This document shows, one piece after another, positions 2,518 through 31,867 of a DNA stretch of 32,882 nt. Made by a program: the position numbers and the translations under genes. The notes below the pieces were generated by a model that did no database searches, was not told the origin of the DNA, and saw nothing but the letters and a program-made list of their open reading frames with translations. The stretch is from Methanosarcina spelaei (GTDB taxonomy: Archaea > Halobacteriota > Methanosarcinia > Methanosarcinales > Methanosarcinaceae), in NCBI RefSeq assembly GCF_002287235.1, contig NZ_LMVP01000368.1:1-32882 (forward strand), given 5' to 3'. Every line of letters begins with the position of its first letter. Position 1 is the first letter of the stretch.

Positions 2518-2723
2518 TAGCTTACTTCATTTGTATTCGGTTAAGGATTTTGAGCTGCTGATCTCGATTTCGACGGAAAAACTCAAACCCAAATGTTTAG
2601 TGTTTAAATTGAAATCGATATCAGATTCCAGTTTTGCATTTGATGAATAATTTAACAAATTTTATGAAAATCAATGCAATTGATAACGATTTTTCCTTAA
2701 CCGATGACCAATGTAGCTTACTT
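2518..2723 (+). mobile_element. MITE-like element copy 1, 186 bp plus 10-bp target duplications
   Basis: The element proper spans 2528-2713. It begins CATTTGTATTCGGTTAAGGA and ends TCCTTAACCGATGACCAATG, giving imperfect terminal inverted repeats sharing TCGGTTAAGGA. It is flanked on both sides by TAGCTTACTT (2518-2527 and 2714-2723), a perfect 10-bp direct repeat as left by transposition. A second copy at 31672-31857 is identical except at one position (C2656 here, T31800 there) and has a different 10-bp duplication. No open frame spans it, so it must have been moved by a transposase encoded elsewhere. The CAT end and 10-bp duplication recall IS4-family elements such as the ISH8 group, but that is inference. 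Confidence 0.92.
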
Positions 2724-3045
2724 TAATAAACCGGAAAGGAAATAGGGGAACTGGAACTCATGTTTTTAGGAAACTGTAAAAAATTCTACCCATTGAAATT
2801 TCAAAAACTATGGTAAAGTTCTCAAAAGTGAAGGCTGAGAACATGAAAATACAAATACAATTTTTATAATGCCATTTTTAACTCCAAGAAAGGACATGAT
2901 GGAAAAACTCTTCAATGCGGGATAGTTTCAAAATTACTTTCCAGTTTCTCTAAATTAATATTTTTTGCTTATTCTTTATTGAAAAAATCAAGATCAATAT
3001 TAGCAATAGCCGTAATACTCGATCCATTTACACACATTATTAACA
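2724..3045. other. Gene-free AT-rich stretch between the MITE and the IS relic
   Basis: No convincing gene. A short frame at about 2870 (MPFLTPRKDMMEKLFNAG, then TAG) could be the stub of a lost gene, but it is too short to identify. Confidence 0.4.
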
Positions 3046-3149
3046 ATATCGTATGAAAGCGATTGCAATTATTCAAAATCATTTATCTTTTGACGATTGA
3101 TTCGACATTAGTGCCATGAAAATTTAATTATTGGTAATCTAATGAGCTT
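3046..3149. mobile_element. Degenerate insertion-sequence relic related to 16539-16732
   Basis: Bases 3046-3112 match, at roughly 80 percent by eye, the reverse complement of about 16541-16607. Bases 3104-3149, starting at TTAGTGCCATGAAAATTTAA, match the direct strand of about 16623-16665. The two halves are thus joined in a different relative orientation from the copy at 16.5 kb. No transposase remains. This looks like a decayed insertion-sequence end or MITE in the ramA upstream region. Confidence 0.6.
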
Positions 3150-3258
3150 AAAACTAACAACTTTAGTTGAGTTTCTACCTGAAGATACAGGTTTACAGAA
3201 AATCTCTACAAAGCCTAATAACTGATTGTTAATACCTTCTAGTCAGGTACTGGTAATA

Positions 3259-3418: not shown

Positions 3419-5041
3419 ATGTATGGAATAGCACTTGATCTGGGTACCAGCGGTTTTAGAGCCCAGCTTATTGATCTTGAAACGAAGGAAACCTTAAAGA
3501 CAGTCATAACCATGGGTCATCCCCTTCCCGGAGGGAATGTTATGGACCACCTGGACTTTGCAATCACAACAGGTGAAGATGTGGCTCACGAGGTAATCAT
3601 CGAGACAATCAGGAGGATGTTCCTGCGGTTTGACGTTGACCTTTACAGTGTGGAACGGCTTGCAGTCTGTGGAAACCCTATACAGCTTTCCCTTTTCCAG
3701 AATACTGAGATAAGGGACCTTGCCTATGCAGGAGAAAACAAGCAGAAGATGCTTGGAGTCAGGAATGTAAAAAGAGATGCCCGTATGTTTTCTGCATCCG
3801 AAATTTTCGGGGAAAAAGATCTGCACAACTGTGAAGTTATCGTACCCCCTGCAATCAAGCACGAAATTGGGGCTGACGCTCTGGCTATGATGCTTGAAAC
3901 CGATTTCCTTATCCACTCTGAACCTTCGCTTGTCACCGATTACGGGACAAATGCCGAAATGGCTCTGAAAATAGGGGATCGAATTATCACTGCAAGCGCA
4001 GCAGCAGGACCTGCGATTGAAGGGCAGGGGATAAGTTCAGGCATGCTTGCAAGCCCGGGTGCGATTTGTGATGTAAAGCCAGAAGGGCAGTACTGGAAAA
4101 TTATAGTTCTTGACAGGGAAATGGAAAAACAGAATGCTTATCTTATTGATCCGATTACGGGGGAGATAAAGGAGTCCTACGGATGTGAAGCAATCGGGAT
4201 CACAGGTACAGGAGTCATCTCGGCTTTTTCTCTTGCACTGAGAAGCGGGCTGATTGAGAGATCTCCTAAACTTCCGAACGGAAAGCTGATCCTGGGTCCC
4301 GGGATTGAGATCACTGAAAAGGATGTCGAAGAAGCAGGAAAAGCTATTGGGGCAATTCGGGCTGCCCATATGACACTTATCGTTGAATCCGGAATCAAGT
4401 ACGAAGACCTGGAGTATGCATATATGTCAGGAGCCTCTGGAGCTTATGTGGACGCTGAAGATGCACGCAGGCTCGGAGCCGCACCGGGTTATGCAAAAAA
4501 AATTGTCCAGTTCGGAAATACCTCGCTTGCGCTTGCCAGGGAACTTGTACTGGAAAAATCCAGGCTGGATGACGTAATTGCGATTGCAAAGAAAATTACT
4601 GCCGACCATCTCATGATGGCGACCAGCGAGACTTTCAACAATTTCTACCTTTGTGAGCTTTCCTACTGGACACAGGGCATGCCACTTGAGATGTACGACC
4701 AGATGCTTGAACTCTACAACCTGCCTCCTCTCCCGAAAATTCTCGAACACGTAAGCATCGAAAAGAGAGTCAGCAAAGACATAGAAGAGGTCGGATCAGG
4801 CGGGCTTTCCATCCTCAAAGAAATTGGTATAATCCTCGAAGTCCCGGTGGAAAAGTGCGTCTACTGCAAAAAATGCGTAAAAGAATGTCCAGAAAATGCT
4901 CTTGAAATCGTAGAAAGAGACAGTCAGAGAATCGCAAAGTACGACAGCCAGAAGTGCCTTGGTACAAGCTGCCGCCGCTGTGTCGGTGTCTGCCCCGAAG
5001 ATGCTATCGATATAACAAAACTGAAAATTACAGCAAAATAA
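3419..5041 (+). CDS. ramA: Corrinoid-activation protein RamA
   Basis: RamA is an iron-sulfur ATPase that reductively reactivates methylamine corrinoid proteins oxidised to the inactive Co(II) state. The 540-residue protein starts MYGIALDLGTSGFRAQ, an actin/Hsp70-like (ASKHA) phosphate-loop signature, and continues as the RACo-type C-terminal ATPase domain (for example ITGTGVISAFSLALRSGLI). The last 64 residues form a two-cluster ferredoxin domain with cysteines at 480, 483, 486 and 490 and at 513, 518, 521 and 525; both motifs end Cys-Pro. The second has the spacing C-x4-C-x2-C-x3-CP, one residue longer than the classic motif at its first gap. A GGAGG site precedes the ATG. Length and architecture are those of methanogen RamA, and the position between mtbA and pylT fits. 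Confidence 0.93.
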   Translation: MYGIALDLGTSGFRAQLIDLETKETLKTVITMGHPLPGGNVMDHLDFAITTGEDVAHEVIIETIRRMFLRFDVDLYSVERLAVCGNPIQLSLFQNTEIRDLAYAGENKQKMLGVRNVKRDARMFSASEIFGEKDLHNCEVIVPPAIKHEIGADALAMMLETDFLIHSEPSLVTDYGTNAEMALKIGDRIITASAAAGPAIEGQGISSGMLASPGAICDVKPEGQYWKIIVLDREMEKQNAYLIDPITGEIKESYGCEAIGITGTGVISAFSLALRSGLIERSPKLPNGKLILGPGIEITEKDVEEAGKAIGAIRAAHMTLIVESGIKYEDLEYAYMSGASGAYVDAEDARRLGAAPGYAKKIVQFGNTSLALARELVLEKSRLDDVIAIAKKITADHLMMATSETFNNFYLCELSYWTQGMPLEMYDQMLELYNLPPLPKILEHVSIEKRVSKDIEEVGSGGLSILKEIGIILEVPVEKCVYCKKCVKECPENALEIVERDSQRIAKYDSQKCLGTSCRRCVGVCPEDAIDITKLKITAK

Positions 5042-5924: not shown

Positions 5925-7199
<1,275 letters not shown>

Positions 7200-10882: not shown

Positions 10883-11045
10883 GTATCTTGCTAATAAATA
10901 ATGCTAATAAATTTAAAAAATGAGATTTCAGTTATCTAAGTAGTCTGAAATAAAATTTCGAATTATATGAAACCCTTTGTCTGCTTCTGTATTTTTACTG
11001 AGCAATAGTTAATATGCCCGTTTTTGTCCTTAAAACGGCTATTAT

Positions 11046-11180
11046 ACGATAATTTGAGGTATTGCACGATAATTTGATGTATTGCACGATAATTTGATGT
11101 ATTACACGATAATTTGGTGTATTACACGATAATTTGATGTATTACACGATAATTTGATGTATTACACGATAATTTGAGGT
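11046..11180. repeat. 20-bp tandem repeat, seven copies
   Basis: Units starting ACGATAATTTGATGTATTAC begin at 11046, 11066, 11086, 11106, 11126, 11146 and 11166, the last truncated to 15 bp. Variation is limited to a few positions (GAG/GAT/GGT, TTGC/TTAC). The strict 20-bp period, close to two DNA turns, resembles an iteron or multi-site protein-binding array. It lies about 90 bp upstream of the DUF2115-like gene. Confidence 0.92.
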
Positions 11181-11273
11181 GAGTATATTAATTCTTGTGA
11201 ACTGTTGTTTTTCTTAAAGAAAGAAGCTGATAACATTTCTCCTTAGTATTTGACAAAGGCACGTACATATGAA

Positions 11274-16538: not shown

Positions 16539-16732
16539 ACTAGTGTCGCGTCAATCCTCAAAGATTGAACGATTTTGAATAATTGTAACCGATTTTATAC
16601 GACATTTTACTGCTGATGCAACACTAGTGTCATGAAAATTTAGTTATTGGTAACCTTATGAGCTCAAAATCGTTGTATGCTGATGGAAGCTATCAAGATT
16701 ATGCTCAACAATTAAATTGCCGAGACACTAGT
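16539..16732. mobile_element. MITE-like element or IS relic with ACTAGTGTC ends
   Basis: The left end is ACTAGTGTCGCGTCAAT; the right end, read on the other strand, is ACTAGTGTCTCGGCAAT, matching at 15 of 17 positions. A third ACTAGTGTC lies inside (about 16622). Two internal stretches match the relic at 3046-3149, one in opposite orientation. The 194-bp element has no transposase. A short frame from about 16658 (MSSKSLYADGSYQDYAQQ) may be transposase residue. It separates the DUF134 and DUF5320 genes. Confidence 0.65.
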
Positions 16733-20420: not shown

Positions 20421-20480
20421 CTTTTCTTTCCCACTTACCCCGCTTTAAGCTGATTCTTTAACTTAGCGATTAGCTCTAAA

Positions 20481-20609
20481 AAATTTAGGACTTACGCATT
20501 TGAGAAACAAAATCAATTACGTCAAAGAACGGAGATTAAAACCATATTCTAGACAGTTAATGGTCTAATGATATTGATTTCTCGGTTCAGCTGCGTAAGT
20601 CCTAAAATT
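20481..20609. mobile_element. 119-bp MITE-like element with TAGGACTTACGCA ends
   Basis: Perfect 13-bp terminal inverted repeats, TAGGACTTACGCA (20486-20498) and TGCGTAAGTCCTA (20592-20604), bound a 119-bp non-coding element. Beyond the perfect arms the inner sequence continues to match loosely (TGAGAAAC, AATCAAT with CGAGAAATCAAT). AATT-rich 5-bp flanks AAATT (20481-20485 and 20605-20609) look like a target duplication. It lies between the usp pseudogene and the intact usp gene. Confidence 0.85.
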
Positions 20610-20655
20610 ATTTCTAAAAAGGATCAGATTGTCCAATTTAGCTACTCAGAACTGG

Positions 20656-22661: not shown

Positions 22662-22694
22662 AAAAAAGAAGACATTGGAAAAAAAGACTTGAAA

Positions 22695-22772
22695 AAGAAA
22701 ATACTGGAATAAGAAAATACTGGAATAAGAAAATACTGGAATAAGAAAACCTGAAATAAGAAACACTGGAAT
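22695..22772. repeat. 16-bp tandem repeat, about five copies
   Basis: Three exact copies of AAGAAAATACTGGAAT (22695-22710, 22711-22726, 22727-22742) are followed by two 15-bp variants to 22772. The array begins about 30 bp after the small membrane-protein gene and lies between it and the convergent tfuA. Confidence 0.9.
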
Positions 22773-31560: not shown

Positions 31561-31668
31561 GTGCTGGGAATCTTAGGTGGTATAAAAAAAATACTTGCTT
31601 TCGTCGCACTTGCTTCCACTATAATCGGATTTATTTCCAGGCTTATGGGGAAGAAAAAGAAAAGATAA
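31561..31668 (+). CDS. 35-residue membrane peptide immediately behind copB
   Basis: GTG 31561 begins 4 bp past the copB stop codon. The product is MLGILGGIKKILAFVALASTIIGFISRLMGKKKKR: one hydrophobic helix (about 10-28) capped by a basic tail. The near-overlap suggests coupled translation with the ATPase, so it may be a small regulatory or stabilising subunit, as small peptides are for some P-type ATPases. A 186-bp MITE is inserted precisely at its stop codon; the target duplication AAGATAAATT includes the TAA. Confidence 0.6.
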   Translation: MLGILGGIKKILAFVALASTIIGFISRLMGKKKKR

Positions 31669-31867
31669 ATTCATTTGTATTCGGTTAAGGATTTTGAGCT
31701 GCTGATCTCGATTTCGACGGAAAAACTCAAACCCAAATGTTTAGTGTTTAAATTGAAATCGATATCAGATTCCAGTTTTGCATTTGATGAATAATTTAAT
31801 AAATTTTATGAAAATCAATGCAATTGATAACGATTTTTCCTTAACCGATGACCAATGAAGATAAATT
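31662..31867 (+). mobile_element. MITE-like element copy 2, 186 bp plus 10-bp target duplications
   Basis: Element proper 31672-31857, with the same ends and interior as the copy at 2528-2713 and a single difference (T31800 for C2656). The flanks are the perfect direct repeat AAGATAAATT (31662-31671 and 31858-31867). Because the target contains the stop codon of the peptide gene, both copies of the target retain TAA and the peptide is unaffected. Near-identity of the two copies points to recent movement. Confidence 0.93.

Follow-up and report, generated by a model that had tools for sequence, protein, structure and literature searches.

A multicopy 186 bp MITE in Methanosarcina spelaei and its likely partner, an ISH8-type insertion sequence

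The window (the whole stretch of 32,882 nucleotides that was analysed) is one contig of G000, the 5.09 Mb draft genome of Methanosarcina spelaei, which consists of 559 contigs. It contains two near-identical copies of a non-coding element, one of which lies between the divergently transcribed genes mtbA and ramA. This raises the question of what the element is, whether it has affected its neighbours and which transposase could have moved it. A sequence-only reading of the window had described a 186 bp segment at 2528–2713 that is repeated at 31672–31857 with one base changed, and this is exact to the base: direct reading of the sequence gives a single mismatch, C to T, at element position 129. 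It had also given each copy its own perfect 10 bp target duplication, and the two duplications do differ, being TAGCTTACTT for copy 1 and AAGATAAATT for copy 2. The features of the two copies and the genes next to copy 1 are as follows.

1259–2278, − strand: mtbA (methylcobamide:CoM methyltransferase), neighbour of copy 1
2518–2527: left target duplication of copy 1, TAGCTTACTT
2528–2713, + strand: MITE copy 1, 186 bp, without an ORF of at least 80 aa; about 30 other host copies are identical to it
2528–2547, + strand: left terminal inverted repeat of copy 1, CATTTGTATTCGGTTAAGGA
2558–2624: internal inverted repeat of copy 1, with arms at 2558–2586 and 2596–2624; the core TCGATTT...AAATCGA is also found in diverged sister MITEs of 185–190 bp
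2694–2713, − strand: right terminal inverted repeat of copy 1, CATTGGTCATCGGTTAAGGA (read on the − strand); its first 18 bp are the end of the IS4-family insertion sequence (IS) of the host
2714–2723: right target duplication of copy 1, TAGCTTACTT
3419–5041, + strand: ramA (corrinoid protein reductive activase), neighbour of copy 1
31662–31671: left target duplication of copy 2, AAGATAAATT, overlapping the TAA stop of an ORF at 31561–31668
31672–31857, + strand: MITE copy 2, 186 bp, with T for C at position 129
31858–31867: right target duplication of copy 2, AAGATAAATT, single and element-free in two relatives

The element and its copies in the host

The element has the properties of a MITE. 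It is shorter than 500 bp, it contains neither a transposase gene nor any ORF of at least 80 aa, and its ends, CATTTGTATTCGGTTAAGGA and CATTGGTCATCGGTTAAGGA, are imperfect inverted repeats that are identical at 17 of 20 positions. A search of the host genome with the left-end pattern found 49 places, of which 48 match exactly across 28 bp (the reversed control gave none), against the two copies that had been counted from the window. Every copy was read with its flanks and the 10 bp duplication is perfect in 46 of the 49. The probability of a perfect duplication of this length arising at random is about 1e-6, and chance is therefore excluded. The remaining three copies comprise one that is truncated at a contig end, where the first five bases of the duplication agree, and two with discordant flanks (L228, at about 6151–6336, and L026); the latter are best read as rearranged, possibly by recombination between copies.

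Relative to copy 1, a T at position 129 is common to 12 host copies and a T at position 149 to three, and these groups look like source lineages. Apart from these two positions, no more than four private substitutions and two indels occur in the whole family of 49, which marks the burst as very recent. A single copy at 97–99% identity is present in each of the relatives G004, G005, G007, G021 and G023 (that of G005 is interrupted), so that the burst belongs to the host lineage. There is also a close copy with unmatched flanks near the end of contig L215 (DNPQ01000026.1), which is binned as a Bacillota MAG (UBA8347). Either this contig is chimeric or misbinned, or the copy reflects inter-domain transfer.

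Insertion sites and the mtbA–ramA locus

The sequence-only reading had proposed that related strains be compared for empty sites with a single target. At the copy 2 site the result is clean: in both G004 and G027 the flanks are present without the element, AAGATAAATT occurs once and the matches of the two flanks have precisely 10 bp in common. At the copy 1 site the comparison is only partly successful. The flanks are joined and the element is absent in the nearest relative, G005, but the target 10-mer there is TGGTGAATTT, which has diverged from TAGCTTACTT, so that absence is clear and the single-target test is less clean. The ORF at the copy 2 site has 35 codons and lies 3' of a copper-type P-type ATPase gene; copy 2 entered at its stop codon, which the duplication preserves, leaving the ORF unbroken.

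MITE insertions were found inside ORFs for 9 of 42 assessable copies, compared with 58% of control positions (p = 1.3e-6); insertions thus avoid ORFs. Copy 1 is 250 bp upstream of the start of mtbA and 705 bp upstream of the start of ramA, which is followed by pylS, pylB, pylC and pylD. In an alignment of eight relatives the last conserved upstream block lies at about 2421–2446 in the window, and copy 1 is approximately 70 bp beyond it. An effect of copy 1 on the promoters of mtbA and ramA, as proposed in the sequence-only reading, is thus not supported by its position, because it falls outside the upstream blocks that are conserved in these relatives.

The mtbA–ramA interval contains other features. 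At 2730–2885, a few bases from copy 1, there is a broken fragment of a class I SAM-methyltransferase-like gene, in whose place G004 and other relatives have a 233-aa ORF. The segment at 3045–3153 is a dispersed repeat with matches of 75–92% at many places in many Methanosarcina genomes, and part of it is present in inverted orientation at 16539–16606. Elsewhere in the window there are approximately seven 20 bp tandem units upstream of a DUF2115 gene (11020–11200), an inverted repeat with 40 bp arms that are 75% complementary and a 55 bp loop (20478–20612), and short tandem repeats with a 16 bp unit, AAGAAAATACTGGAAT (22679–22772).

The likely partner insertion sequence and the mode of transposition

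Ten near-identical 5' halves of an IS4-type IS were found in the host genome. Each starts with CATTGGTCATCGGTTAAG, is cut off by a contig edge after 1041 bp and has an open transposase frame of 329 aa. Nine host contigs terminate in 55 bp of the other IS end, CATTGGTCATCGGTTCAG, which was located by its terminal pattern. Seven pairs of 5' and 3' halves could be matched through an identical 10 bp duplication, so that the host has about 10–12 IS copies. Contig ends interrupt these copies. The C-terminus of the transposase, with the K of the YREK motif, falls beyond the contig edge, and a search of the host contigs for it gave no match. Complete copies in relatives are 1445–1453 bp long, encode a transposase of 435–448 aa and are flanked by 10 bp duplications.

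The transposase belongs to PF01609 and scores 206.7 bits against NCBIfam NF033592 (cut-off 115), as expected of an IS4-type DDE enzyme. Published criteria for the ISH8 subgroup are length, CAT ends with T at position 15, a YREK motif and 10 bp direct repeats (PMC2266710). The length of the complete copies lies within the 1400–1800 bp of this subgroup; CATTGGTCATCGGTTAAG and its variants have the form CAT-----------T, with T at position 15; the complete copies of relatives have the motif Y-GA-R-WDI-E-LLFKEL-K; and 10 bp direct repeats flank both the seven paired host copies and the complete copies of relatives. By these criteria the partner is likely to be an autonomous IS4-family insertion sequence of ISH8 type. 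It differs in that no apparent target specificity was seen for the subgroup (PMC2266710) whereas the IS described here has a weak but clear palindromic preference for RA-N6-TY.

Several lines of evidence tie the MITE to this IS. At the CATTGGTCATCGGTTAAG end the MITE is identical to the host IS over 18 bp, and to the IS of some relatives over 20–21 bp; its left end agrees with the host IS ends at 15 of 18 positions. The duplications are 10 bp long in both. Targets of strict RA-N6-TY form were found for 27 of 46 MITE sites, 8 of 12 host IS sites and 10 of 12 IS sites in relatives, compared with an expectation of about 2%. Additionally, on contig C224 the elements are arranged as TACCTAAATC-MITE-TACCTAAATC-IS and the far side of the IS also carries TACCTAAATC, so that the MITE abuts the IS and the two have the same target duplication. 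There is a comparable IS–MITE pair in G010 (L143). The sequence-only reading had suggested a search for a transposase gene with the same ends, and it is answered by this IS, which matches the MITE in one 18 bp end, in the size of its duplication and in its preferred targets, and has an intact transposase in relatives.

Outside the ends there is little similarity. That between the MITE and the host IS is confined to the ends, with some 50 bp at 74% adjoining the right end and the 15 of 18 positions at the left, and the best match to any IS is 58 bp at 81% (IS 3' end, G012). We have accordingly rejected the idea that the MITE arose from the host IS by simple internal deletion. Two other candidates for an autonomous version were also set aside: a 3.3 kb element between two MITE halves in G005, which is the MITE interrupted by other DNA, and a long version in G026 (L084), in whose reading frames no transposase was recognised. 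Searches for a vehicle found no exact match to the 20 bp ends in viral contigs and no match to the element in plasmids.

Taken together, the data suggest that the element is very probably a MITE that is mobilised in trans by the ISH8-type transposase of the host. We infer that the transposase recognises the CATTGGTCATCGGTTAAG-type ends that are common to IS and MITE, and that the MITE may be active at the present day. The enzyme would bind these ends and insert the MITE at staggered cuts 10 bp apart, in AT-rich targets of RA-N6-TY form that are mostly intergenic, and repair of the cuts by the host would then produce the 10 bp duplication.

Mobilisation by a different host transposase, for example that of an uncharacterised IS with the left end CATTTGTATTC, would account for the three of 18 positions at which the left end of the MITE departs from the host IS ends, and CATTTG-type ends are present on sister MITEs and on a decayed IS in G018. 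Nevertheless, MITE and host IS are identical in 18 bp of the right end, agree in the length of the duplication and in their choice of targets, and have one target in common at C224. No other PF01609 transposase locus in the host has such ends on both sides, and we consider a second enzyme very unlikely. That the repeat was dispersed by homologous recombination or assembly error, without any transposition, might be suspected from the many identical copies in a draft of 559 contigs and from the two with discordant flanks. This is refuted by the 46 perfect duplications and the clean empty sites, which require target duplication, and the relatives hold single copies of the same structure; we regard it as almost certainly wrong.

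The element might instead be a structured regulatory RNA or attenuator that is retained for its effect on neighbouring genes, its mobility being secondary. It folds better than shuffled sequences (z = −5.4), diverged sister elements have kept the internal inverted repeat and the copies are mostly intergenic. A strong fold, however, is favoured by inverted terminal repeats alone, and covariation within the 185–190 bp sister group is negligible (−0.16 kcal/mol). No Rfam family matches the element, the sole hit being sub-threshold and elsewhere in the region. The copies are also recent, being absent from both of the sites that were compared in relatives, and such a regulatory role seems highly improbable. 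The original proposal of recent transposition of a non-coding element is strongly supported by the 49 copies, their 46 perfect and mostly differing duplications, the empty sites of copy 2 and the presence of a likely autonomous partner.

Sister elements and known MITEs

Sister MITEs of 185–190 bp and 144–145 bp are found throughout the genus, the host included, with matching ends and 10 bp duplications (at most one mismatch). The internal inverted repeat TCGATTT...AAATCGA is kept in the 185–190 bp group and was absent from those IS copies that were inspected. Tentatively, the core of the MITE could be ancient and under selection of its own, for instance as a cis-acting enhancer of transposition or a second transposase site, and not mere filler, although we think this rather doubtful. 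In G016 (L235) there are many 24 bp end matches but the MITE core is a different one, TATTTGTATTCGGTTAAGGATTTTGTTAACCC, and is partly masked as N.

The weak similarity outside the ends places this element among the type II MITEs as PMC10969869 uses the term. In common with prokaryotic type II MITEs, whose likeness to an IS lies mainly at the ends, it is shorter than 500 bp, multicopy and without a transposase gene, and it has terminal inverted repeats (4–30 bp in that class), direct repeats, a high AT content, mostly intergenic locations and a strong predicted fold (PMC10969869). In contrast with them, it is unusually homogeneous, the duplications of 46 of the 49 copies are intact and the likely partner IS is in the same genome.

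MITEs are already known from Methanosarcina, for example those of ISMba11/IS1634 (247 bp, direct repeat of 6 bp), ISMac2/IS1182 (160 bp, direct repeat of 4 bp) and ISMba19/IS5 (147 bp) (PMC3852290). These are of similar size and show little likeness to their partners outside the ends, but none in that table, which cites a further 26 archaeal families described before it, combines an IS4 partner with a 10 bp direct repeat. In the literature that was searched for Methanosarcina MITEs there is no description of the 186 bp element. It adds a new and unusually clean member to a well-known class of elements, and we do not claim priority.

The element provides a clean archaeal case in which, after a recent burst, a gene-less element is more numerous than its likely partner IS (49 copies against 10–12). 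The setting is a genus used for archaeal genetics, and the defined ends, the target rule and the empty sites make mobilisation in trans directly testable.
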